NCBI GenBank assembly: GCA_947479085.1
Contig: CANJYB010000007.1
Coordinates: 1-64,000 of the forward strand
Reading direction: 5' to 3'
DNA length: 64,000 nt
Source: Bacteroidota bacterium
GTDB taxonomy: Bacteria > Bacteroidota > Bacteroidia > 2-12-FULL-35-15
Shown: in pieces, positions 6,623-32,475 of the stretch
Numbering within the stretch: position 1 is the stretch's first letter
Layout: the number at the start of each line of letters is the position of its first letter
The notes under the pieces: model-generated
Seen by the model: only the letters and a program-made list of their open reading frames with translations
Database searches by the model: none
What the model was told of the DNA's origin: nothing
Program-made: the position numbers and the translations under genes

Positions 6623-9600
6623 ATGAAAAGTCAGAATTTAAAAAAAATGTTACCGGTAGCATTGCTAAGCATTGCATTACTGGCGTTGGTAGCCTGGATT
6701 AATCCGGGTAATTATTATGAATTGGCACAGGAAAATGATTTTATCCGAACGCTGAAAAAGAAATTATCTGTTTACAATGAACAAATGCCCGAAGACAGGA
6801 TATATGTTCAGTTTGATAAACCGTTTTACGAACCGGGAGATAATATCTGGTTTGGCGCTTATGTGCGCGATGGTTCCACACTGAAAGCTTCCGGCAAAAG
6901 TGATATTGTACATGTGGAGTTTGTTAATCCAAAAGGAACTATCGAAAAATCAATTATTCTGATTGCAAAAAACGGTATAGCTTCCGGAGATTTCACCTTA
7001 GATAAGGAAGCCTTGGGTGGAATGTATAAAGTAAGGGCTTACACCAACTGGATGAAAAATGAAGATGTGAATGCAGCATTTGAAAAGGAACTGCAGGTGC
7101 AGGATGTGATATTGCCGAATTTGAAAATGAAACTGGACTTTGAGCGCAAAGCTTTTGGGGCGGGAGATGAAGTGGTGGCAAAACTGGAATTGAATACAAA
7201 TGAAAATAAACCGTTGGGAAATTATAAAATAAATTTTGTTGCAAATCTCGATGGAAAACAACTATTGACCAAAGCAGACATTACGGATGAAGCAGGAATA
7301 AAATACATTCATTTTAATCTGCCAAAGGAATTAAAAACCAATGATGGATTGCTGAATGTGATGATAGATTATAACGGAAACACAGAGAGTATTTCGCGTT
7401 CCATACCAATAGTATTAAATAAAATAAAACTCGACATGTTCCCCGAAGGTGGTGATTTGGTGAGTGGTTTAAAGAGTAAAGTTGCTTTCCGTGCTTTGAA
7501 CGAATTTGATAAACCTGCGGATGTGGAAGGAATAGTTGTAAATGAAATGGGTTTGCAGGTGGCCACTTTCAATAGTTATCATCAGGGTATGGGAGCATTT
7601 GATTTTACACCGGTTGCAAATGAAAAGTACACTGTTAAAATTACTAAACCGGAAGGAATTAAAGAAACATTTGCTTTGCCTGAAACATTTGCAAGAGGAT
7701 ATGTGTTGGGTGTGGATAATTCAAAACCATCGGAACTAACCGTAAATATTAATACTACAGAAACAGAAGAATTATCGCTGGTAGCCCAGGTAAGAGGAAA
7801 GATATACTATTCAACTGCTGTAAATACAAAGAAGGGAAGTAATAAAATTGTTTTGCCCACTTCCGATTTCCCTATTGGTGTTTCACAAATTACGCTGTTT
7901 GATTCTAAAGGAATAGCCCGTGCGGAACGACTTGCCTTTGTAAATAAAGACAAACAACTTAGTATTTCGGTGGCAACTGATAAGGAAAAATACCTGCCAA
8001 GGGAAAAAGTGAAAATGACCTTAACCGTAAAAGATGAGCGGGGAATGCCAATGCCGGCCAACTTATCCATGTCGGTAGTTAATGACCAGTTACTTTCATT
8101 TGCCGATGATAAATCTGGAAATATGTTATCACAACTTTTATTGCAACAGGATATTAAAGATAAAGTGGAAGAACCTGCATTTTATTTTAATAAGAAAGAA
8201 GCAAAGGCTGATTTGGCGTTGGATTATTTATTAATGACTTCGGGCTGGAGAAGGTTTACATGGGAAAAACTGCAGGGAGATAATATGCCTGTGGTTGCTT
8301 ACCAATCTGAAAGAGCAATTGTATCAGGAATGGTAATGGATGCTTATACAGGCAAACCTTTACCAAGCGCTAAAATAAAAATAAATGCAGGAGCTGAATA
8401 CGAGACAGACGAGAACGGAAAATTTATATTTAATAAACTGGATTTAAGCAACCCTGTTAATCTAACACTTAGTAAAACTGCTTATACATCGGCTGTGCAG
8501 GCGGTTCCTAATTACGGAGACAACCAGGTTTATTATTTATATCCTGCAAATTATAATTATTATGGTTACTTCAGAGGAGCCGGAGGTGCAGGAAAAGCGG
8601 ATGCAGGAGTTCAGATGGACGAAATGGCAAACATTCCGATGGCTGCTGCCAGAGGAGAAAATGCTGAAGTGTTAAAAGTTGTAGAAATAAGGGAAGAAAT
8701 GGCATTGGAAAAAATGGCTGAGCCAAAAAGAGTAATGCAAAAACATGAAGGAAAAAGGGAAAGGGGCAAAAATCTTGAAAAGCCGATAGTCGAAAACATT
8801 GTAATGGCTGATAACAAAAAGGCAAAGGAAGAAAAGAACGAAGAGAAAGGATTGAAACAGGTAATTGTTAAAGCGAATGATAACCGCAACGACCGTTTTA
8901 ATAAGGATAAAGATATGGAGGCCGCTGATGATGAACAAATGAACTTGAATGGATTAGCGAAACAGCAGGCAGTTGTCGCAACTCCGGTTTATTACAGGGC
9001 ACGACAATTTGCTGCACCGGTTTATGACAAACAGGAAACAGTGGAAACCCGTAGAGATTTCAGAAACACAATTTACTGGAATCCCAATGTGGAAGTGGAC
9101 CGGACAGGAATGAAAACAGTAGAGTTTTATGCCAGCGATGATATTACATCATTCAGAGCAACAGTAGAAGGTCTTGCAACAGATGGTTCTTTAGGAAGAG
9201 CAGAGTCAACTATTTATACTCAATTGCCTTTTGCCATGTCAGCAAAAATACCTGTTGAGGTTGCTACTGAAGATAATGTGTCCATTCCGCTTACATTAAA
9301 AAACAATACAGATAAACCATTGGGTGGTTTTATTACCATCACATCTCCTGAAGGACTAAAATCCCTGGTTGAAGTTCCATCCGTGCAAACCATTATGCCG
9401 GGTAAAGCAAAAACAATTTACCTTGATTATAAAGTGCTTGATAAAGTTGGTTACGGAGATTTCACCATTAGTTTTAAATCCTGCGGGTTGGGAGATGCGT
9501 TTACTCAAAAAATAAAAATAGCTCCTAAAGGATTCCCTGTAAGTGCGTCTTTTTCCGGACAGGAAGTAGAAAAGGAATATTCTTTTGATATGAGTAATGT

Positions 9601-11128
9601 GGTGAATGGTTCACTTAAAGCGAATTTCACCGCCTATCCTAATGTGGTGAGTGATTTGATGAAGGGAGTGGAAGGTATATTGAGAGAGCCTTATGGTTGT
9701 TTTGAACAGACTTCTATGAGTTCTTATCCAAATGCAATGGTGCTTGATTATTTGAAATCTACAGATAGTAAGGATGATAAAACACTTTCCCGTGCAGAAG
9801 ACTTACTGGATAAAGGGTATAAACGATTGATAACATTTGAAACGAAAGATAGGGGATACGAGTGGTTTGGTTCCAATCCGGGACATGAAGCATTAACGGC
9901 TTATGGATTAATGCAGTTTAATGATATGAAAAGAGCAGGGGAGAAGGTGGATAATAAAATGATGGAACGCACTGCGAATTGGTTATTTAGCAGAATAGAT
10001 GGTGATGGAGGATTTAAAAGAAGTGCAGAAGCTTTGGATAATTTCGGAAGAGCAAGAAAAGAAATTACGGATGCATATATCGTTTATGCATTATCTGAAG
10101 CAGGGTTTACCGATATCAAGAAAGAATTTACAGCTTCTTATAATTATGCAATGAAAAGTAAAGACCCTTATGTATTAGGACTAGTGGCTTGTTCGGCATA
10201 TAACTTAAAAGAAAATACGAAAGCAGATGATGCATTGAATTTACTATTGGCTAAACAGGAAAAGAATGGAAGCTGGACAGGAGCAGAACATTCTATTACC
10301 TATTCTACCGGACAGTCTTTGACAATTGAAACAACTTCATTAGCGGTGATGGCAATTATTAAATCAGGAAATGGAAATGGGAATGCAATGGCCAATGGGG
10401 TAAAGTTTATTGTTGGTTCCCGGAGCGGTTATGGAGAGTTTGGAAATACACAGGGAACTATCCTTGCCCTGAAAGCATTAACAGAATATGCCAAGGCAAG
10501 CAAAAAAACAAATGAAAATGGAGAGATTGCTATTTATGTGGATGGAAAAAAGGTGACTGATAAAACATACAAAGCAGGAGAAAAGGAGGCCATTGTTATA
10601 GATAATATTGAACAGTATATAAACGGAGATGGCCAACATACTTTAAAAGTGAAATACATAGGTGTAAAAACTCCGTTGCCTTATTCTGTTTCTGTAAGTT
10701 GGAATACCAGTTTACCTTCAAGTTCAAAAGAATGCTCAGTTGGTTTTACAACAAAAATGTCAAGCAAAACTGCAAATGTGGGCGAGACTGTTCGATTAAG
10801 TGCAACTCTGACCAATAAAGAGAATAAAGGGATTCCAAGCACTATGGCAATCATTGGAATACCGGCAGGGTTTACTGTTCAACCATGGCAGTTAAAAGAA
10901 ATGCAGGAGAAGAAAGTGTTTGATTATTATGAAGTGGCTGGCAACAACATTGCAATTTATTACCGTTGCATGGCTCCCAATGCTGTGAAAGAAATTAACC
11001 TGGATTTGAAGGCTGAAATGCCTGGAGAATATGACGCGCCAGCTTCATCAGCATATTTATATTATACTAACGAATATAAAACATGGAGTGGTATGTATAG
11101 AGTTAAAATTTCAAAAAGTAAAATCTAA
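6623..11128 (+). CDS. Alpha-2-macroglobulin family protein with thioester motif
   Basis: Large envelope protein (1501 residues) of the bacterial alpha-2-macroglobulin family, thought to trap attacking proteases. An N-terminal hydrophobic segment (residues 12-24, PVALLSIALLALV) serves as signal or anchor; there is no lipobox. An MG2-type domain with YVQFDKPFYEPGD begins near residue 56. A carboxypeptidase-regulatory-like fold lies near 565-615, followed by a long, highly charged linker (about 660-780). The macroglobulin core begins near 810 and the thioester motif C-F-E-Q is at residues 1026-1029, followed by the alpha-alpha barrel of the thioester domain. In well-studied Proteobacteria the family is paired with penicillin-binding protein 1C; no such gene is nearby. 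There is no T9SS tail. The stop is immediately followed by the next ATG. Confidence 0.9.
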   Translation: MKSQNLKKMLPVALLSIALLALVAWINPGNYYELAQENDFIRTLKKKLSVYNEQMPEDRIYVQFDKPFYEPGDNIWFGAYVRDGSTLKASGKSDIVHVEFVNPKGTIEKSIILIAKNGIASGDFTLDKEALGGMYKVRAYTNWMKNEDVNAAFEKELQVQDVILPNLKMKLDFERKAFGAGDEVVAKLELNTNENKPLGNYKINFVANLDGKQLLTKADITDEAGIKYIHFNLPKELKTNDGLLNVMIDYNGNTESISRSIPIVLNKIKLDMFPEGGDLVSGLKSKVAFRALNEFDKPADVEGIVVNEMGLQVATFNSYHQGMGAFDFTPVANEKYTVKITKPEGIKETFALPETFARGYVLGVDNSKPSELTVNINTTETEELSLVAQVRGKIYYSTAVNTKKGSNKIVLPTSDFPIGVSQITLFDSKGIARAERLAFVNKDKQLSISVATDKEKYLPREKVKMTLTVKDERGMPMPANLSMSVVNDQLLSFADDKSGNMLSQLLLQQDIKDKVEEPAFYFNKKEAKADLALDYLLMTSGWRRFTWEKLQGDNMPVVAYQSERAIVSGMVMDAYTGKPLPSAKIKINAGAEYETDENGKFIFNKLDLSNPVNLTLSKTAYTSAVQAVPNYGDNQVYYLYPANYNYYGYFRGAGGAGKADAGVQMDEMANIPMAAARGENAEVLKVVEIREEMALEKMAEPKRVMQKHEGKRERGKNLEKPIVENIVMADNKKAKEEKNEEKGLKQVIVKANDNRNDRFNKDKDMEAADDEQMNLNGLAKQQAVVATPVYYRARQFAAPVYDKQETVETRRDFRNTIYWNPNVEVDRTGMKTVEFYASDDITSFRATVEGLATDGSLGRAESTIYTQLPFAMSAKIPVEVATEDNVSIPLTLKNNTDKPLGGFITITSPEGLKSLVEVPSVQTIMPGKAKTIYLDYKVLDKVGYGDFTISFKSCGLGDAFTQKIKIAPKGFPVSASFSGQEVEKEYSFDMSNVVNGSLKANFTAYPNVVSDLMKGVEGILREPYGCFEQTSMSSYPNAMVLDYLKSTDSKDDKTLSRAEDLLDKGYKRLITFETKDRGYEWFGSNPGHEALTAYGLMQFNDMKRAGEKVDNKMMERTANWLFSRIDGDGGFKRSAEALDNFGRARKEITDAYIVYALSEAGFTDIKKEFTASYNYAMKSKDPYVLGLVACSAYNLKENTKADDALNLLLAKQEKNGSWTGAEHSITYSTGQSLTIETTSLAVMAIIKSGNGNGNAMANGVKFIVGSRSGYGEFGNTQGTILALKALTEYAKASKKTNENGEIAIYVDGKKVTDKTYKAGEKEAIVIDNIEQYINGDGQHTLKVKYIGVKTPLPYSVSVSWNTSLPSSSKECSVGFTTKMSSKTANVGETVRLSATLTNKENKGIPSTMAIIGIPAGFTVQPWQLKEMQEKKVFDYYEVAGNNIAIYYRCMAPNAVKEINLDLKAEMPGEYDAPASSAYLYYTNEYKTWSGMYRVKISKSKI

Positions 11129-17179: not shown

Positions 17180-19864
17180 ATGTTAAACAAGTGTTCCGTT
17201 TCTTTAATTGTTTTTTTACTTTTGAGTTATTCTTTTGCGGGAAATATATTTGGATTTATTCCAAATCCTTCTCATGTTGTTGTTTTAGTGTTGGAGAACC
17301 ATGGTTATAATTCTGTAGTAGGTTCCTCTGCCGCTCCTTATATTAACAGTCTTATTAATGATCCTTATTCCGCCTTGTTTAATGAGTCTTATGCGCTTTC
17401 TCATCCTAGTCAGCCCAATTACATTCAATTGTTTTCAGGTTCTACCCAGGGTGTAACCAATGATAATATACCAGCCGGTATACCTTTTACTGCTCCTAAC
17501 CTTGGTGCAGCATTATTAAATGCTTCACATACTTTTACAGCTTTTTCTGAAGGCTTGCCTTCCGTTGGATATACAGGGGCTGTTTCGGGTAGTTATGCAA
17601 GTAAACATAATCCATGGGTTAATTGGCAGGGTACCGGTGTAAATGGAATACCGGCAGCTTGTAATCAACCGTTTTCTGCATTCCCCACTAATTTCAATTT
17701 ACTTCCCGATGTTTCGTTTGTAATTCCTAACCAGGATAATGATATGCACAATGGAACAGACCCATTGCGAATAAATACCTGTGATACATGGGTTCAAACA
17801 AATCTGGATGCTTATATACAATGGGCAAAAACTAACAACAGTTTATTAATAGTGACTTTTGATGAAGACGATAATGTTTCTATTCAGCATATATTAACTT
17901 TTATAATTGGTTCAGGTGTACAGCATGGTGTTTACTCTGTTCCAATTGATCACTATTCCCTCCTTAGTCTTATTGAAGATATGTATAATCTTCCAAATTC
18001 AGGAAGCGCAGCATCAGCTGCTCCAATTGATTATTGCTGGACTACCTGCAGCTCATTAAACGTTACTATTTCCGGAAATAATCCAATCCAGGTTTGTGCA
18101 GGAAATACTGTAACTCTTTTGGCAAGTGGAGTATCTGCTTATAATTGGTTGCCTGGCAATATTACCGGTTCATCCATTACTGTTTCACCAACGGTTAACA
18201 CTACTTATTATGTTACAGGAACAGATGTTAATGGTTGTACTAAAACAACAAACAAATCAATTTCAATTAATGCTGCTATTCCTTCTGTTCCGGGAACTAT
18301 TTCCGGCAGTACAATAGTTTGTGCGAATTCTATCAATAAAACATATTCGGTTTCGGCTGCTGCAGGGGTAACTTATAACTGGACTCCTCCTTCGGGTGTG
18401 ACAATACTATCCGGACAGGGGACTAATAGCATTATATGTAATTTTAATAGTAATTGGAGTGCTGGAAACCTGAGTGTAACCGGAAGCAATGCATGTGGAA
18501 TTAGTGGAGCCAGAACTTTAGCAATAAAATCAATTCTTGCGGCACCGACTGCAATCACCGGAAGTGTTTATCAATGTGCTTCTACTACAGGAACATTTGG
18601 TTGCACCGCTGTTTCAGGAGCAACTTCCTATTTATGGAGCATCACAGGAGATGCAACAATATCAGGGAACGGTATTAGTTCAACAGTTTCTTTTGGACCA
18701 ACTTTTACTACCGGGGTTTTATCGGTTATGTCAGTTAACCTTTGTGGTAATAGTTCCGCAAGAACAATTACCTTAAAAAATACAGTTGCAGCTCCTACTG
18801 CCATAAGTGGACCTACATCAGGTTTATGTTCCTCTGGGACCTCTTCGGCTACTTATACAGCAACAGCCGTGGCAGGGGCGGTTTCCTATATCTGGACATT
18901 ACCTTCGGGCGCAACAGGGAGTTCTTCCTCTAATAGTATTTCAGTTACTTTCGGACCTTTATTTACGTTAGGAAATATTTCAGTTGCAGCGGTATCGCCA
19001 TGTGGAATTGCAAGCGGTGCTAAAATTTTAGCAGTTAAGTCAGTGCTTACTGCTCCCACTACTATAACCGGTTCTGCAAGTGGACTATGCAATGTAAGTG
19101 GTATTTCCTATACATGTGCCACTGTTACTGGAGCTACTAGTTATACATGGACTGCTCCTGCTGGAGCAACAATTGTTAGCGGTCAGGGAACAGCCACTTT
19201 AGTTGTTAATTTTGGTTCTTTTTCTTCAGGCAACATAACAGTTAAAGCAAACAATGGTTGTGGTAGCAGCCCTGCAAAAGTTTTAGCATTAAAAGGTTCT
19301 CCTGCTGTTCCTGCTGCTATCATTGGCGTTACTGGAATATGCGCCATGCAAACCGGAGCAGTTTATTCCATTGCAGCAGTTGCCAATGCAAGCAGTTATA
19401 CATGGACAGTGCCTACGGGAGCGGTTATTGTAAGCGGGCAGTCAACCAATTCTATTGTTGTTAATTTCGGTTCAACAGCTGGTAATATTACTGTAAAATC
19501 AAATAATGCCTGTGGCTCAAGCGCAGTAAAAACGCTTGTTACCTCTATAACCTGTCTTGGTTTATTTAATAGTAATTTAAAATCAATTGACTCTTATGAG
19601 GAAAATCAATCATCCTTTTTTGTTTATCCCAATCCTGTAGGAAAGGAGTTAACTCTTAGTGCTTACGTTGAATCAGGCAAAGAAATTAGTTTTGAAATTT
19701 ATGATATAAATGGAAAAAAGATAATTGGTCAAAAGCGAAACTTAATAAAAGGGGAGAACCTGTTAACAAGCACTGCTGAAGGTTTAGAAAGCGGGATGTA
19801 TTTGTTAAGAATAACAGATAATGATAAAAATGTTCTTTATTCGGAAAAGATAATTAAAGATTAA
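17180..19864 (+). CDS. T9SS-secreted phosphoesterase with PKD-like modules
   Basis: 894 residues. After a signal peptide (VFLLLSYSFAGN), residues about 28-285 form an acid-phosphatase/phospholipase C-type phosphoesterase domain: VVVLVLENHGYNSV with the metal-binding Glu-Asn, ALSHPSQPNY with the nucleophile region, PNQDNDMHNG, and LIVTFDEDD. One Ig-like module with PIQVCAGNTV and then five PKD-like modules of about 85 residues follow; each has a P-x-x-I-x-G start, Y-W-T core and CG-x-S end. The tail (about 810-894) is a T9SS type A sorting domain: VYPNPVGKEL, YDINGK, GLESGMYLLRI and a basic end. The protein should be exported by Sec, then T9SS, to the surface. The natural substrate is unknown. 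Confidence 0.88.
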   Translation: MLNKCSVSLIVFLLLSYSFAGNIFGFIPNPSHVVVLVLENHGYNSVVGSSAAPYINSLINDPYSALFNESYALSHPSQPNYIQLFSGSTQGVTNDNIPAGIPFTAPNLGAALLNASHTFTAFSEGLPSVGYTGAVSGSYASKHNPWVNWQGTGVNGIPAACNQPFSAFPTNFNLLPDVSFVIPNQDNDMHNGTDPLRINTCDTWVQTNLDAYIQWAKTNNSLLIVTFDEDDNVSIQHILTFIIGSGVQHGVYSVPIDHYSLLSLIEDMYNLPNSGSAASAAPIDYCWTTCSSLNVTISGNNPIQVCAGNTVTLLASGVSAYNWLPGNITGSSITVSPTVNTTYYVTGTDVNGCTKTTNKSISINAAIPSVPGTISGSTIVCANSINKTYSVSAAAGVTYNWTPPSGVTILSGQGTNSIICNFNSNWSAGNLSVTGSNACGISGARTLAIKSILAAPTAITGSVYQCASTTGTFGCTAVSGATSYLWSITGDATISGNGISSTVSFGPTFTTGVLSVMSVNLCGNSSARTITLKNTVAAPTAISGPTSGLCSSGTSSATYTATAVAGAVSYIWTLPSGATGSSSSNSISVTFGPLFTLGNISVAAVSPCGIASGAKILAVKSVLTAPTTITGSASGLCNVSGISYTCATVTGATSYTWTAPAGATIVSGQGTATLVVNFGSFSSGNITVKANNGCGSSPAKVLALKGSPAVPAAIIGVTGICAMQTGAVYSIAAVANASSYTWTVPTGAVIVSGQSTNSIVVNFGSTAGNITVKSNNACGSSAVKTLVTSITCLGLFNSNLKSIDSYEENQSSFFVYPNPVGKELTLSAYVESGKEISFEIYDINGKKIIGQKRNLIKGENLLTSTAEGLESGMYLLRITDNDKNVLYSEKIIKD

Positions 19865-24108: not shown

Positions 24109-27100
24109 ATGAAAAAAACAATTACCATCATTGCAACTATTGCCTATTGCTTATTAGTAATAGGGACAGTAAAAGGTCAAACCAATCCATCTCCTGCATT
24201 GTTATCAAATTTGTATGCGCAAAGCTTTTCATTAGCAGCTACATCCACTACCTATCCGGTAGGTTGGCAGGGCTGGACAGTAGGTACCACATCAGGAGCA
24301 ACTTTCCGCACAACGGACCCCACCGCAGATGCAGCAATGATTGCTTCCAGTGGAGCATCAATTGCCACAGGCGGAGTGCATAATTACAATGGCAAAATAG
24401 GAATGTTGGCAAGCGGTAGTACCGATCCATCCATTTGTTTTGCCATAAGCACAAGTAGCCGCTCAGATGTAAAAGTTAATTTTGATTTAATGACAATCCG
24501 TAATCCTTATGATGGAGCCGCTAATACACGTATTAATGCTGTTGACTTACAATACCGGGTAGGAACATCAGGTGCATTTACTTCCGTAACCGGAATAGCA
24601 AACGGTATTTATCAGAACAATACCACCACACAAGTTGGCTCAGGAGTAACCACCCCACAAAATGTTCAGGCAATAGCAATAACACTACCTGCTGCTTGCG
24701 ATGGTCAAGCTAACATACAACTAAGATTAGTGCAACGCGATATTTCCGGAGTTGGCTCCAGACCAAGTTTTGCAATAGATAATGTAACAATAGTTGCAAA
24801 TTTACCTAAAATCACCTCCTTTGCACCGGCTTCAGGTGCAATAGGCAGTAGTGTGGTAATTACAGGTACAGGGTTTAGTGCCACCGCAAGCCAAAACACA
24901 GTTTTCTTTGGAGCTACCAAAGCCACAGTAACAGCCACAAGTACCACCAGTTTAACAGTTACCGTGCCCATTGGCGCTACTTATCAAAATATATCAGTTA
25001 GAAATTCGGTTTTTGGTTTAACAGGATATTCCTCCAAGCCCTTTATAGTAACATTGGCAGGTAATATTGCTTTTGCTAACAAACAGAATATAGCAACAGG
25101 AACAAATTCTAACTCCGTTTGCTTAGGGGATATAGATGGCGATGGTAAACCCGATATGGCTGTGGCTAATACAGGTAACAATACAGTTTCAGTATACAGA
25201 AATATCTCCACTTCAGGTACAATTGTTTATGCTACCAAAGTTGATTTTACAACAGGTAGTTTCCCTGTTTCAGTAGTTATTGGTGATGTAAATGGAGATG
25301 GCAAACCTGATTTAGTTGTAGCCAATCAATCAAGTAATACCGTATCTTATTTTGTTAACACCTCTGTATCCGGAACAGTAAACTTTAATCCAAAGGTTGA
25401 TTTAGCTACAGGTTCAGCACCAAATATGGCAAGTATAGGAGATATTGATGGAGATGGAAAGCCTGAAATAGTTGTGGCCAATATTAGCAGTAGTACTATC
25501 TCAGTATTTCAATATTCTTTTGGTACTTATGCCCCGGCAGTAAATTATAGTGTAGGTTCAAATCCTATGTCAGTAACTATAGGAGATATAGATGGAGATA
25601 ATAAACCCGATTTAGTATCAGCAAATAGCAGTAGTGCAAATGTATCTGTTTTACGAAATACTTCAACCTTAGGTACAATTAATTTTGCCGGAGTTGTAAA
25701 TTTCACAGCAGGTACTAATCCAATGTACGCCTGTATAGGAGATTTGGATGGCGATGGCAAACCCGATTTGGCAGTGGCAAACCAAGGCAGTGCCACTGTA
25801 TCTGTCTTACGTAACAATTCCACCTCAGGGACTATAGCATTTATACCTAAAGTAGATTTCACCACAGGTACTCAACCCAATACAGTAATTATTGGCGATA
25901 TAGATGGAGATGGTAAACCCGATATGGCAGTAGCTAATCAAGGAAGCGCATCAACATCAATGTTAGCTAATACCTCCACCAGCGGAACCATTAGCTTTTT
26001 ACCTAAAGCCGATTTCGGAACCAATTCGCCCCCTGTTTCAGTATTTATAGGTGATATTGATGGAGATGGCAAACCAGATGTATCGGTTGCCACTTATGGC
26101 GGCACTATTTCAATACTAAAACAAATAATACCATTTACCATTACCAACTTTGCACCTGCCACAGGCGCTATAGGGAGTAGTGTAACCATTACCGGTACAG
26201 GATTCAATACCACCGCAAACCAAAATATAGTATTCTTTGGTGCTACGCAAGCAACAGTAACTGCCGCAAGCAACACCAGCTTAACAGTTACAGTACCAAT
26301 TGGAGCTACATACGAGAATATTTCAGTAACCAATCTATCAGCTAACTTAACAAGATATACTTCCAATCCATTTAATGTAACCCTAAACGGAAATATCGCT
26401 TTTACAGCCAAGGTGGATTTTACTACAGGAACAAGTCCTCATTCAGTAAGTATCGGAGATTTTGATGGTGATGGCAAATCGGATCTGGCAGTGGCTAATC
26501 AAAACAGCAACACTATATCTTTATTTCGCAACACTTCCATTTCCGGTACTGTAAGTTTTGCTGCCAAAATTGATTTCACAACTGGTACGCAGCCTTATTC
26601 AGTAATTTCCGGAGATATAGATGGTGATGGAAAACCTGATTTGGCTGTCGCTAATTTAAGCAGTAACACTGTATCTGTTTTTCGAAATTCTTCCTTCCCT
26701 GGCACTATCAGCTTTGCTATTAAAGTTGATTTCGCGACAGCTTCAAATCCTATTTCAGTAGGTATAGGTGATATGGATGGTGATGGCAAACCTGATTTGG
26801 CAGTGGCTAATAATGGCAGCAATACTGTTTCGGTTTTGCGCAATACCTCCGTTTCCGGAACTGTCAGTTTTGCAACCAAAGTTGATTTTACTTCAGGTGT
26901 ACAACCTGTTTCAATAAGTATCGGTGATCTGGATGGCGATGGGAAAGTTGAAATGGCAGAAGTTAACCTAGGTTCAGGCACTGTATCGGTTTTTAGGAAT
27001 ACATCTTCACCTGCAACAATTAGTTTTGCAGCAAGACTTGATTTTTCAATAGGCTTTTTTAATAACAACCCCGGTTCAGTTATTATAGTTGATATGGATG

Positions 27101-30100
27101 GGGACGGGAAACCTGAAATGTCTGTAGGGGATCAGGTTTATGGTATTGTAGCCGTATTCAGGAATAATTGCACCCCGGGAACAATTGGTTTTTATAGTCC
27201 GGTAAATACAGTGCAAACAGGTTCTTCCAATTCTATTGATATCGGAGATATAGATGGTGATGGTAAACCTGATTTGGCCGTGGCTAATGTCGGCATCAAT
27301 ACAGTATCAGTAGTACGAAGCACTAGTTCCATTGGAAATATTAGTTTTGCCTCCAATCTTGATTTTGCCACAGGTAATAGTCCTCAATCAGTAATTATTG
27401 GTGATATAGATGGAGATGGCAAACCTGATTTGGTTACGGCAAATACAAACAGTAACACAGTATCAGTAATTCGGCAAATAATACCTATAATAATTACCTC
27501 CTTTACTCCTTCAGCCGGATGTATAAATACAAGTGTAGTAATCACAGGCAGTAATTTTACAGGTGCCACTGCAGTTACCTTTGGTGGAACCAATGCACTT
27601 AGTTTTACGGTTAACTCTTCCACTCAAATTACAGCAATTGTTGGCAACAATCCTTCCGGAACTATAGTTGTATCTAGCCCTATTACTAGCGGTGTAAGCT
27701 CAGGTGTATTTTCAGTTAGTAATTTACCAATAGCTCCTGTAGCATCCAGTAATAGTCCTGTATGTGCAGGTACTTCTATAAATCTATCTTCCGTATCAAC
27801 AAATTTATTTGTCGTTTTATCGACCAGCGGGACTCACTCGCTTGGCATTAAATCGGACGGAACCTTATGGGCGTGGGGAACGAACAATTATGGTCAGTTT
27901 GGAACAGGAAATACTTCTAGTTCTGTTATACCCGTGCAGGTGGGAAACGCAACAGATTGGGTTAATGTTGCCTGCGGGGGGTACTTTTCAATTGCATTAA
28001 AAGGAAATGGTTCTGTTTGGTCATGGGGAAGAAATGACCAGGGACAATTAGGGGATGGAACAACTACTCTAAGTCTAAGTCCTGTAACAGTTATTGGTTT
28101 AACCGGGGTTACTGCCATAGCTGCAGGAACTTCTCATTCCCTCGCAACCACCGGTGGAATTGTAAAAAGTTGGGGGAATAATACCAACGGACAATTAGGG
28201 GATGGAACAACAACAATGAGAACAACACCTGTTACAGTTACTGGTTTATCGGGAATTACGGCAATTGCGGCAGGAGATAGCCATTCACTTGCTATCCAAG
28301 GCGGAATTGTAAAAAGCTGGGGAAAAAATGCCAATGGACAACTGGGTGATGGAACAACAACTCAAAGGGTAACTCCTGTAAATGCATCAGGTTTGTCAGG
28401 TGTTACAGCTATTGCAGCTGGAGCTAATCACTCACTTGCAATCATAAGTGGAAGTGTAAAAAGTTGGGGGTTTAATTCCAACGGGCAATTAGGAGATGGG
28501 ACAACCACTCAAAGAACAACTCCGGTGATAGTTTCGGGTTTATTAGGTATTACTGCTATTGCAGCAGGCTCTATTCATTCTCTGGCAATTACAGGCGGGA
28601 TTGTAAAAAGCTGGGGGTACAATGCCTTTGGTCAATTAGGCGATGGGACCACTACTCAAAGGACCACTCCTGTAACCGTTTCCGGTTTATCAGGTGTTAC
28701 TTTAATTAGCTCGGGTACCGGCAGTCTTTCTTCCTTCGCAATTACAGGTGGAATCGGTAAGTCATGGGGACAAAATCAAGGTTTATTAGGGGATGGAACA
28801 ACCGTTGATAGATTAACTCCTGTAAACATTGTGAACAGTTACAGCATAATAAATTATAACTGGACAGGCCCCGATAATTTTGTTTTATCAGCACAGAACC
28901 CAACCATCACAAATAGTACAACTGCTAGCGCAGGTACTTATTCAGTAGTGGCAGTAAATGATTTGGGTTGTATTTCTGCACCTGCTACTACTTCTGTTAC
29001 TATAAATCCTGCACCAAACATTGGAATATCAGTATCACCTAATGCTTTTGTATGCACAGGAACATCAGTAACACTTACGGCAACAGGTGCGGTTTCTTAT
29101 AGCTGGTCAGGTGGAATAAATAATGGCGTATCATTTATTCCTGGTGCAACTACTACATATACTGTTACAGGTACGGGAGCAAACGGATGTACAACCGCAG
29201 TAACACAAACCATAAATGTATTATCCAATTACAACCTTGTTGCTTCATCTGGAGCAAACGGAAGTATTACACCTAATGGAACTACCACACTGTGTTCAGG
29301 AGCTAACCAACTTTATGCAATAACTCCGGCAGGCGGTTATCATATTTTGGATGTATTAGTAGATGGAGTTTCAAATGCAGGAGCAATAGCAGTTGGAACT
29401 TACACATTTTCGAATGTAACCGCTACACATACCATAACTGTTACATTTGCACCTAATTGCACAGCACCTTTATTTACAGTCTGCCCGGGAACGCAAACCT
29501 CAGCAACTTCATTGGGGCTTTGCAGCAATGCGGTTTCTTATACTTCTGCAACATCAGGAACAATACCAACTGTAACTTATGCATTCAGCGGAGCTACAAC
29601 AGGAAGCGGAAACGGAGATGGAAGTGGTTCAACATTTAATACAGGAACTACAACGGTAGCCTTAACAGCAACCAATGGATGCGGAATAGCATCCTGTAAC
29701 TTTAATATTTTAGTCACAGATAACCAGGCACCGGTTGCGAACATTACAATTTTACCAATAATAACAGGGCAATGTTCAGCATCAGCAATAGCTCCAACTG
29801 CTACTGATAATTGTTCAGGAACTATAACTGGAACAACCATTGATGCACTTAGTTATTCAACCCAGGGAACATTTACCATTCACTGGACATACAATGATGG
29901 CAATGGAAATACTTCTACGCAAAATCAAACAGTGATTGTAGCTGACAATCTTGCACCGGTTGCTAACGTAAGCACATTGCCAACCATTACTGGGCAATGT
30001 ACCGCAACAACCACAACACCAACCGCAACAGATAATTGTGCAGGAGTAATATCAGGAATTACAGTTGATCCTACATCTTATTCAGCGCAGGGAACATATA

Positions 30101-32475
30101 CCATTCACTGGACCTACAATGATGGAAATGGAAACACATCAACGCAAACACAAACAGTTGTTGTAGCTGATGTGACAGCACCGGTAGCAGACTTAGCTTC
30201 ATTACCAACGGTAACCGGACAATGTTCAGCAACAGTAACCGCACCAACCGCAGCAGATAATTGTGTTGGATTAGTAACAGGTACTACAGCAAGTCCAATG
30301 AGCTATACAGCACAAGGTACTTACAGCATTACCTGGGCATACAATGATGGTAATGGAAACACATCAACGCAAACACAAACAGTTGTTGTAGCTGATGTGA
30401 CAGCACCGGTAGCTAACGTAGCTTCATTGCCTACAGTATCAGGACAGTGTTCAGCAACAGCAACCGCACCAACAGCAACAGATAATTGTGCAGGAAGTGT
30501 AACAGGAACAACTACTGACCCTACTTCTTACAATGCTCAAGGTGCTTATACGATTACCTGGAGCTACAATGATGGCAATGGAAATTCGTCTACACAAACA
30601 CAATCAGTATTTGTGTTAGATAACACTCCACCATCTATAGCTGCACCAGCAGATGTAACCGTTTGTAGCTTAACAGCAACAACAGTTGCAATAGGAACAG
30701 CAACTGGAAGCGACAATTGCGGAACAGTAACATTCAGCAATGATGCACCTGGAACATTCCCAATCGGAACTACTTCAGTAATCTGGACAGCAGATGACGG
30801 AAACGGAAATACAGCAACCGCTACACAAAACGTAACTGTAAACCAAACGCCAATCGGTTTAGCTTCAGATATCGTTATATGTAATGGAGACCCAAGCAAC
30901 TTGCCATTAAGTGCAGACATAATGGGAACAACCTTTACATGGACTTCAATGGTAACAGCCGGAGGAGTGATTGGAAACGGTTCATGTTCATCAGGGTGTA
31001 CATCTACTATTTCTGATGTATTAACCAATACAGGATTTGTACATGGTGTGGTAACATATACTGTTACACCAACATCACCTGACGGCTGCGTAGGTCCAGA
31101 CTTTATGCCAACCATAACAGTAGGAGCAGCACCAGCTACACCAGTAATATCAGGACCATCAGTAGTTTGTAACATGACCACAGCTACTTATTCAGTAGTA
31201 CCTGTTCCTGAAGCAATGCTATATACATGGACAGTACCAACAGGAGTAACCGGAATGACCATTACAAGCGGACAGGGAACACCAACCATTACTGTAACTA
31301 TATCAGCAGGAACAGTAATAGGAAACGTAACTTGCCAGACATCAAACAATTGTTTACCAAGCAATGCAGCAGCATCAATGGCAGTGACTAAAAAACCGGC
31401 AGTACCGGGATTAATATCAGGTCCAACATCAACCTGCGGACAAACTACCGCAAGCTACTCAATAGCATCAGTTTTTGGAGCAACTTCTTATGCATGGACA
31501 GTACCAGCTAACATGACTATTACAAGTGGTCAGGGAACTACCGCAATATCTGTATCAATGACCACTGCATTTGTTTACGGACAAGTGAAAGTATCAGCGG
31601 TAAACAATTGCGGAAACATTCCGGGAACTGCATTAAACGTAACAGGAAATGTACCACCGGCACCGGTAACCGTATCCGGACCATCTAACGTTTGCGGATT
31701 AACAACAGCTACTTATTCGATAGCACCTGTAACAGGAGCAACAGGATACAACTGGACGATAACAGGAGCAGGAACCATAATAGGTTCTAACACCGGAACA
31801 TCGGTAACAGTAGCTTTAAACGGAACATCAGGAGGAAGTATCTCTTGTGCATCAACTAATGCATGTGCAAACGGAACAGCAAGAACGTTGAACTTAGTAG
31901 TAACTGCAACAGTACCTTCAGTTATATCAGGTCCAACTACCATCTGTGGAGTAAACACAGCAACATATTCAGTTTCATCATTAGGAGCAGGATATACTTA
32001 TAACTGGAGTTTAGCTTTAGGAACAGGTTGGACAATAACAGCAGGCCAAGGAACTCCTTCTATCACCATTAGCGGAACATCAATTTCAACAAACCCTTTA
32101 TCAGGATTAGTGAAAGTGACTTCAACTAACGGTTGCGGAATGACCAGTGCATTCAGAAGTATGGCAGTTACTTATTGCCACGATGGAATTGCAATGAGCG
32201 GTACCGAAACAAACAGCAATACCTTCTCTAACATTTATCCAAATCCAACATCATCAGAATTTACAATAGATGTAACATCAGATGTGGATAAAGATGTAAC
32301 TGTTGAAGTGTATGATGTGTTAGGTAACCTTGTTATCCATGCAAAACATCAATTAGTGAGTGGAACAAACACAATGAAAACCAACATTGAAGATTTCGAA
32401 AACGGAATGTATTTCGTGAGATTGTTAGATGTTGATTCAAATGTTATTCATTCTCAAACGGTGATTAAACAGTAA
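24109..32475 (+). CDS. Giant T9SS-secreted multi-propeller adhesin
   Basis: 2788 residues, presumably a surface or matrix protein. After the signal (IIATIAYCLLVIGTVKG) comes a jelly-roll-like domain (about 25-225). TIG 1 (233-310) is followed by seven FG-GAP/VCBS blades (about 320-667), each with a calcium-loop motif like DIDGDGKPD. TIG 2 (677-755) is followed by seven more blades (764-1120). TIG 3 spans 1128-1202. An Ig-like domain starts with SNSPVCAGTSINLSS near 1215, is interrupted by seven RCC1 repeats (about 1245-1575, core NGQLGDGTTT), and resumes with YNWTGPDNF. Further Ig-like modules, five HYR modules (about 1873-2245; 75-residue units) and four PKD-like modules (about 2290-2690) follow, then a T9SS type A tail (IYPNPTSSEF, GMYFVRLLDVD). 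Calcium binding is inferred from the motifs; the ligand is unknown. Expression passes the terminator-bearing leader. Confidence 0.92.
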   Translation: MKKTITIIATIAYCLLVIGTVKGQTNPSPALLSNLYAQSFSLAATSTTYPVGWQGWTVGTTSGATFRTTDPTADAAMIASSGASIATGGVHNYNGKIGMLASGSTDPSICFAISTSSRSDVKVNFDLMTIRNPYDGAANTRINAVDLQYRVGTSGAFTSVTGIANGIYQNNTTTQVGSGVTTPQNVQAIAITLPAACDGQANIQLRLVQRDISGVGSRPSFAIDNVTIVANLPKITSFAPASGAIGSSVVITGTGFSATASQNTVFFGATKATVTATSTTSLTVTVPIGATYQNISVRNSVFGLTGYSSKPFIVTLAGNIAFANKQNIATGTNSNSVCLGDIDGDGKPDMAVANTGNNTVSVYRNISTSGTIVYATKVDFTTGSFPVSVVIGDVNGDGKPDLVVANQSSNTVSYFVNTSVSGTVNFNPKVDLATGSAPNMASIGDIDGDGKPEIVVANISSSTISVFQYSFGTYAPAVNYSVGSNPMSVTIGDIDGDNKPDLVSANSSSANVSVLRNTSTLGTINFAGVVNFTAGTNPMYACIGDLDGDGKPDLAVANQGSATVSVLRNNSTSGTIAFIPKVDFTTGTQPNTVIIGDIDGDGKPDMAVANQGSASTSMLANTSTSGTISFLPKADFGTNSPPVSVFIGDIDGDGKPDVSVATYGGTISILKQIIPFTITNFAPATGAIGSSVTITGTGFNTTANQNIVFFGATQATVTAASNTSLTVTVPIGATYENISVTNLSANLTRYTSNPFNVTLNGNIAFTAKVDFTTGTSPHSVSIGDFDGDGKSDLAVANQNSNTISLFRNTSISGTVSFAAKIDFTTGTQPYSVISGDIDGDGKPDLAVANLSSNTVSVFRNSSFPGTISFAIKVDFATASNPISVGIGDMDGDGKPDLAVANNGSNTVSVLRNTSVSGTVSFATKVDFTSGVQPVSISIGDLDGDGKVEMAEVNLGSGTVSVFRNTSSPATISFAARLDFSIGFFNNNPGSVIIVDMDGDGKPEMSVGDQVYGIVAVFRNNCTPGTIGFYSPVNTVQTGSSNSIDIGDIDGDGKPDLAVANVGINTVSVVRSTSSIGNISFASNLDFATGNSPQSVIIGDIDGDGKPDLVTANTNSNTVSVIRQIIPIIITSFTPSAGCINTSVVITGSNFTGATAVTFGGTNALSFTVNSSTQITAIVGNNPSGTIVVSSPITSGVSSGVFSVSNLPIAPVASSNSPVCAGTSINLSSVSTNLFVVLSTSGTHSLGIKSDGTLWAWGTNNYGQFGTGNTSSSVIPVQVGNATDWVNVACGGYFSIALKGNGSVWSWGRNDQGQLGDGTTTLSLSPVTVIGLTGVTAIAAGTSHSLATTGGIVKSWGNNTNGQLGDGTTTMRTTPVTVTGLSGITAIAAGDSHSLAIQGGIVKSWGKNANGQLGDGTTTQRVTPVNASGLSGVTAIAAGANHSLAIISGSVKSWGFNSNGQLGDGTTTQRTTPVIVSGLLGITAIAAGSIHSLAITGGIVKSWGYNAFGQLGDGTTTQRTTPVTVSGLSGVTLISSGTGSLSSFAITGGIGKSWGQNQGLLGDGTTVDRLTPVNIVNSYSIINYNWTGPDNFVLSAQNPTITNSTTASAGTYSVVAVNDLGCISAPATTSVTINPAPNIGISVSPNAFVCTGTSVTLTATGAVSYSWSGGINNGVSFIPGATTTYTVTGTGANGCTTAVTQTINVLSNYNLVASSGANGSITPNGTTTLCSGANQLYAITPAGGYHILDVLVDGVSNAGAIAVGTYTFSNVTATHTITVTFAPNCTAPLFTVCPGTQTSATSLGLCSNAVSYTSATSGTIPTVTYAFSGATTGSGNGDGSGSTFNTGTTTVALTATNGCGIASCNFNILVTDNQAPVANITILPIITGQCSASAIAPTATDNCSGTITGTTIDALSYSTQGTFTIHWTYNDGNGNTSTQNQTVIVADNLAPVANVSTLPTITGQCTATTTTPTATDNCAGVISGITVDPTSYSAQGTYTIHWTYNDGNGNTSTQTQTVVVADVTAPVADLASLPTVTGQCSATVTAPTAADNCVGLVTGTTASPMSYTAQGTYSITWAYNDGNGNTSTQTQTVVVADVTAPVANVASLPTVSGQCSATATAPTATDNCAGSVTGTTTDPTSYNAQGAYTITWSYNDGNGNSSTQTQSVFVLDNTPPSIAAPADVTVCSLTATTVAIGTATGSDNCGTVTFSNDAPGTFPIGTTSVIWTADDGNGNTATATQNVTVNQTPIGLASDIVICNGDPSNLPLSADIMGTTFTWTSMVTAGGVIGNGSCSSGCTSTISDVLTNTGFVHGVVTYTVTPTSPDGCVGPDFMPTITVGAAPATPVISGPSVVCNMTTATYSVVPVPEAMLYTWTVPTGVTGMTITSGQGTPTITVTISAGTVIGNVTCQTSNNCLPSNAAASMAVTKKPAVPGLISGPTSTCGQTTASYSIASVFGATSYAWTVPANMTITSGQGTTAISVSMTTAFVYGQVKVSAVNNCGNIPGTALNVTGNVPPAPVTVSGPSNVCGLTTATYSIAPVTGATGYNWTITGAGTIIGSNTGTSVTVALNGTSGGSISCASTNACANGTARTLNLVVTATVPSVISGPTTICGVNTATYSVSSLGAGYTYNWSLALGTGWTITAGQGTPSITISGTSISTNPLSGLVKVTSTNGCGMTSAFRSMAVTYCHDGIAMSGTETNSNTFSNIYPNPTSSEFTIDVTSDVDKDVTVEVYDVLGNLVIHAKHQLVSGTNTMKTNIEDFENGMYFVRLLDVDSNVIHSQTVIKQ
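30127..30413 (+). repeat. Near-identical HYR module repeats within the adhesin
   Basis: A 62-base stretch (30127-30188) recurs exactly at 30352-30413, an offset of 225 bases (75 codons, one HYR module). Flanking sequence is diverged, which points to recent gene conversion or duplication between neighbouring modules. Confidence 0.85.

Follow-up and report, generated by a model that had tools for sequence, protein, structure and literature searches.

In a single open reading frame of a 64,000-nucleotide stretch of Bacteroidota DNA (the whole of the stretch analysed, referred to here as the window), seven RCC1 repeats stand between two pieces of Ig-like sequence. The question raised by this locus is whether those pieces are the two halves of one Ig-like domain, with a β-propeller nested inside it, as was proposed in the original prediction from the DNA letters, or whether they belong to separate domains that happen to flank the repeats.

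The host protein and its interrupted Ig-like module

The frame encoding the repeats is open throughout, with no frameshift over 2788 codons, and the layout of its product is given in Table 1. Pfam analysis matched PF13517 across both FG-GAP blocks (8.6e-118, 14 stretches) and PF01833 (TIG) in three stretches, and HYR-like and PKD-like modules were also detected. At the C terminus, the type A sorting domain of the type IX secretion system (T9SS) was recognized by NCBIfam (TIGR04183, 40.2 bits against a cut-off of 23) and the same tail was matched by PF18962 at 4.5e-15, while the N terminus resembles a signal peptide as judged by eye only. The T9SS translocon protein SprA is encoded in the same genome (TIGR04189, 2569 bits). 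The 2788-residue multidomain protein is probably secreted and surface-exposed. None of its 19 Pfam matches is to an RTX family. Further downstream in the gene, tandem HYR-like repeats with a period of 225 and 76% matches in the DNA were observed at positions 29764-30608.

Table 1. Features of the gene carrying the interrupted Ig-like module (positions in the window)
Feature	Position	Strand	Basis
Protein of 2788 residues, probably secreted, host of the nested domain	24109..32475	+	Single ORF; Pfam/NCBIfam domains
FG-GAP repeat block 1	25060..26113 (ends approximate, by eye)	+	PF13517
FG-GAP repeat block 2	26377..27469 (ends approximate, by eye)	+	PF13517
IPT/TIG domain directly before the split Ig	27484..27732 (approximate)	+	PF01833; aligned to the TIG of L192
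Ig-like first half, predicted strands A-B, residues 1209-1229	27733..27795	+	Profile; Ig-guided model
Inserted RCC1 propeller, predicted seven-bladed, residues 1234-1573	27808..28827	+	PF00415/PF25390; model; UVR8 match
Ig-like second half, predicted strands C-G, residues 1578-1633	28840..29007	+	Profile; model; GhpA fit
Next Ig-like module, intact but diverged, residues 1642-1702	29032..29214	+	Profile positions 4-73, 7.5 bits
T9SS sorting tail, residues 2709-2788	32233..32472	+	TIGR04183; PF18962

The relationship between the two Ig-like pieces was studied using a profile of 77 positions prepared from 18 intact modules, which were picked by pattern from loci of the same genus. The first piece (APVASSNSPVCAGTSINLSSV) matched positions 1-21 of the 77 with 16.0 bits (i-E 5.5e-7), and the second, inside which the motif YNWTGPDNF starts at Y1583, matched positions 23-77 with 57.5 bits (i-E 6.3e-20). 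When excised singly, the halves scored 24.6 and 65.1 bits against the same 77-position profile. Joining them artificially generated a single full-length match of 88.4 bits, which is within the range of intact copies. Pfam gave no match for either half, and in this nested region of the protein it annotated the guest alone.

Intact copies of this Ig type are numerous in the genome itself and in the genus, with eight modules scoring at least 70 bits in 20 stretches of the same genome. Across the ORFs of loci L001-L342 together with the window, 216 distinct intact modules (at least 40 bits) were counted against two split ones, namely that of the present protein and that of locus L070. Given the adjoining profile matches, the score of the joined halves and the rarity of split copies against 216 intact ones, the halves are, at the level of sequence, complementary and the cut is clean.

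The inserted propeller and the fold of the Ig halves

Between the Ig halves lie seven WGxN motifs at a spacing of 49-51 residues, and the Pfam RCC1 family matched the insert at 2.4e-67, with six stretches significant individually. The structure of the insert was predicted by AlphaFold2 from an alignment of 23 RCC1 homologues that contained no Ig rows. The resulting model has a pLDDT of ~97 over the insert and 28 strands, arranged as three, then six sets of four, then one. The first three strands and the last strand are predicted to share one blade, giving one closed seven-bladed propeller, in keeping with the original view that the repeats suffice for such a fold. Comparison of the model with UVR8 gave a Z score of 55.5 and an rmsd of 1.7 Å over 352 residues, and a Foldseek search returned TM scores to the target of up to 0.89. 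Since three strands from one end and one from the other would complete the same blade, both ends of the propeller should sit together on one side, a closeness that we infer from the strand order, and a propeller with both ends in one blade can occupy a loop without disturbing its host domain.

A foreign origin for the insert was considered and dropped, as its GC3 (28.7%) is near that of the flanks (25.4 and 22.9%) and blade 1 alone deviates. Blade 1 (27799-27948) has a GC3 of 44%, compared with 22-32% in blades 2-7, and its DNA is just 33-36% identical to that of blades 3-6.

In the model prepared without Ig rows, both Ig halves had pLDDT values mostly below 50. A second, Ig-guided model was then based on alignment A6, which contains 16 intact Ig modules from viral-collection contigs. 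All 16 of these rows skip the insert and align to about residues 1209-1231 and 1578-1633. In this case, the first half reached a pLDDT of ~94 and the second one of 93-97, the propeller part being poor (mostly below 50). Note, however, that these values depend on A6, in which the Ig rows already span both halves. Two models were used because MAFFT placed Ig rows among the RCC1 repeats in a deep mixed alignment, and the Ig and the propeller are each of high confidence in separate models, never jointly in one.

The modelled Ig halves were compared with known folds by VIA-align 2. Both halves fitted on one contiguous Ig domain of 83 residues in the grappling hook protein GhpA of Aureispira (9flw_A, residues 3911-3993), with a Z score of 13.0 and an rmsd of 1.4 Å over 82 aligned residues. 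The top of the list consisted of eight GhpA entries, the seven besides 9flw_A having Z scores of 11.6-12.6, and by sequence, too, the Ig part found its best PDB match in GhpA. The evidence that the halves are to be modelled as one Ig fold is strong, though it comes from two models rather than a joint one.

Taken with the WGxN motifs, the RCC1 family match and the complementary profile halves, these data confirm an Ig-like module cut by seven RCC1 repeats. The original prediction had placed the arrangement at 27730-28990, with the halves at residues 1215-1230 and from 1583, and was right to within a few residues. Its description of a nested insertion with both halves still recognizable is supported by the profile halves, by the A6 rows, by the model and by the single GhpA Ig. 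The structure prediction that it had recommended returned a closed propeller and, in the Ig-guided model, Ig halves above 90 pLDDT. The contrary case, in which each half belongs to a separate complete domain, was sought and not encountered, the profile halves being complementary and both fitting, as modelled, on one Ig.

Searches for the same nesting and other guests in stalk modules

A site without the insert was found in a sister species (genome G012, locus L192), where an uninterrupted TIG-Ig pair is ~60% identical over query residues 6-111 (106 residues) and continues directly into the remainder of the Ig module; past the TIG and the opening strands of the Ig, the BLAST alignment is not meaningful. 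Homologues of two kinds had been named as search targets, and this uninterrupted module is the kind that was recovered, while the RCC1 insertion was not encountered elsewhere in the genus, class or wider scans.

In the 36 genomes of the genus, which were also all those searched of the family and order, no second case of RCC1 within an Ig loop was present among the matches listed. Among these listed matches, two rows from outside the window passed query residue 378, which is the start of the second Ig half, reaching residues 380 and 390, and both came from genome G033. One of them, L040, was rejected as an instance of the same nesting, the RCC1 there being followed by a HYDIN-like module, and the other is on contig C31, within a frame of 492 residues. 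Across 395 genomes of the class, no row but that of the window went beyond residue 350 of the full query, and with a query covering the C-side junction all matches except the window's own were to Ig alone. Scanning 84,980 genomes by pattern (best 80 of 237), and viral contigs likewise (69 loci), gave no RCC1-in-Ig arrangement. Among 237 RCC1-bearing frames in the loci collected, copies of the window included, L056 and L281 were the only others with an Ig profile match of at least 6 bits, and both were set aside as the Ig there is a separate downstream domain. Scans of viral contigs with the A1 profile or with single Ig queries returned few relatives or none. Viral-collection contigs do encode RCC1 repeats, as well as Ig modules of the present type (L098-L166, L403-L423), and one such contig is 155 kb in length (L403/L421).

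RCC1 as a guest was thus confined to one genome among the genus, class, 84,980-genome and viral-contig searches, and conservation therefore cannot vouch for its function. Propellers also occur un-nested in proteins of this sort, mostly at the N terminus, and un-nested RCC1 proteins are encoded in the same genome, so nesting is not required for them.

Other guests were found in stalk modules of relatives. The split module of L070 (G023:C239, residues 263-556) is of the same Ig subtype and is cut at the same profile position, with a different guest that has no Pfam match but for which L197 has homologous domains (33% identity, 2e-18). In three loci (L199, L402 and L228), LamG was assigned, with the halves judged by eye, to the B-C loop of an Ig-like module, the last of these loci being from another family (Chitinophagaceae bacterium LGM1). 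When 30 LamG loci were inspected, four were judged by eye to be nested, three in modules of HYDIN/ASH type (L382, L384 and L385) and one in an Ig (L402). In L168 (G058:C117, about residues 155-365), a discoidin-like domain splits an SprB repeat, again by eye in the B-C loop. Very large proteins likewise contain HYDIN/ASH-like stalk modules that are split, as judged by eye, by GEVED (L040) or LamG, and L043 contains a weak ThuA-like stretch (E 0.0067) between HYDIN/ASH-like halves that were also assigned by eye.

A further acceptor was seen in the Ig_7 modules of 30 genus loci (L343-L372). The subtype ending TTYxAE was interrupted before its last strand, in the F-G loop, in 13 of 14 modules, by guests that include glycine-rich, GEVED, DUF4082-like and other domains. 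One of two modules ending VE was interrupted, and all 23 modules with VQ, VT, VS or AL endings were intact; two further Ig_7 modules lie at a frame end. These counts were made by pattern, with an AE module that is itself interrupted as the query, a choice that favours the AE subtype.

The varied guests in the same kind of loop suggest, from sequence comparison, a reusable acceptor site, and T9SS proteins seem to have attached binding heads to Ig stalks in this manner repeatedly. It could be that the T9SS stalk proteins of Bacteroidota possess dedicated acceptor modules whose ligand-binding guests have been swapped in evolution, making up a general head-mounting system independent of RTX proteins, a broader proposal on which we are evenly divided. 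The acceptors would then comprise the Ig B-C loop, the F-G loop of the Ig_7 'AE' subtype, HYDIN/ASH modules and SprB repeats, and the RCC1 propeller would be one interchangeable head; here too the case for and against seems to us balanced.

Comparison with known systems and proposed role of the split module

Among known designs, the split Ig domain of RTX adhesins comes closest, and the present case is its T9SS counterpart. In two reports on the RTX adhesins FrhA, AhLap and MpIBP, split Ig-like domains are proposed to project ligand-binding domains off the stalk; some of the guests are sugar-binding domains, for which arrays revealed glycan binding (PMC10865825, PMC12077191). As in those proteins, a large, probably secreted surface protein carries tandem Ig-like stalk domains, one of which is discontinuous in sequence, with a globular guest budding from it and the Ig completed after the guest. 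The ends of RTX adhesin guests emerge near each other, which is implied here by the predicted 3+1 blade closure. Unlike the RTX adhesins, this protein has a T9SS tail in place of an RTX β-roll and type I signal, and it bears an RCC1 propeller as guest. Its Ig is broken after two strands (21 residues), whereas in FrhA the break follows a single strand, the first stretch being 12 residues. Membership of the RTX adhesin family was considered and rejected, as the protein lacks RTX and type I features and ends in a T9SS tail. A term search of PMC12077191 found no mention of Bacteroidota.

The closest solved relative of the Ig part, by both sequence and fold, is GhpA (grappling hook protein A) of Aureispira sp. 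CCB-QB1 (PDB 9flp, 9flw and others), a protein of 5898 residues that has tandem Ig modules like the host protein; the comparison concerns the Ig modules only. The GhpA ranges that were matched are contiguous Ig domains, unlike the split Ig described here.

The insert has RCC1 repeats and a closed propeller, the closure being predicted, in common with UVR8, the RLDs of HERC2, RCC1 and BLIP-II. It is unlike these propellers in being nested in another domain and in a secreted protein, and its identity to UVR8 is ~32%. RCC1-type propellers of solved structure are protein-binding scaffolds. The integrin α-I domain is inserted in a propeller, which is the acceptor there, and the nesting described here is the reverse, with the propeller as guest. 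In both cases nesting would equip an adhesion receptor with a domain for ligand binding, although binding by the present guest is only proposed. A literature search, with most subscription journals outside its reach, found neither an RCC1 domain nested in an Ig nor a T9SS protein with split or nested domains. What appears new, within that search, is the T9SS protein as host and the RCC1 propeller as guest; the split-Ig design itself is known from RTX adhesins.

The interpretation that we hold to be very probable is that an Ig stalk module accommodates the seven-bladed RCC1 propeller in its B-C loop and that the split Ig serves as a display bracket. Strands A and B are predicted to come before the propeller, and the remainder of the sandwich, located after it, to complete the same Ig fold. 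By analogy with the RTX adhesins, the split Ig may act as a rigid bracket that keeps the stalk continuous, with the propeller held sideways by its two chain connections and its far side left free for an extracellular protein or glycan. That the propeller does bind a ligand is a guess, to which we incline slightly.

It is rather unlikely, in our estimation, that a genuine nesting is without selective value or purely architectural, with a propeller that arrived through recombination between the repeat-rich genes of secreted proteins and acts as a bulky spacer or does nothing. Such genes are indeed rich in repeats able to recombine, the same genome has un-nested RCC1 proteins, and the insert is not conserved in the other genomes searched. 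However, the frame is unbroken and each half of the fold is preserved, and a GC3 near that of the flanks, together with blades 3-6 that have diverged to 71-77% DNA identity, argues against a recent accident. LamG and discoidin-like guests also recur in the same type of loop, which speaks against a neutral origin.

Far less probable is an assembly of unrelated remnants, in which gene fusion has left, as debris, a propeller between two truncated Igs. Repeat arrays can yield truncated modules, and neither half acquired a fold in the model without Ig rows; yet one half stops at profile position 21 and the other starts at 23 without any overlap, an exact fit that a truncated pair would be unlikely to show, L070 is split at the same position around another guest, and one solved Ig accommodates both halves. 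An artefact of assembly or translation, conceivable in a repetitive region of a draft genome of 50 contigs, is the least credible account of all, since 2788 codons are read in one frame, the blades differ from one another and both junctions lie inside the contig.

Returning to the split Ig as a display bracket, a single case would be a structural curiosity, and when taken together with its relatives it points to the recurrent mounting of binding domains on T9SS Ig stalks. If the split-domain sign holds for T9SS proteins, it would help to locate binding domains within the large Ig-stalk proteins of Bacteroidota. Most of these lack annotation, and in simple domain searches they come out as beads on a string or are overlooked. 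Natural cases of one kind of loop taking very different folds can, in addition, aid those who study or design domain insertions.

Two further genes of the window deserve mention. A protein of 1501 residues encoded at 6623-11128 contains a PYGCFEQT stretch, which we take to resemble the thioester motif of alpha-2-macroglobulin, and a phosphoesterase encoded at 17180-19864 has five PKD_6 stretches and a T9SS tail.
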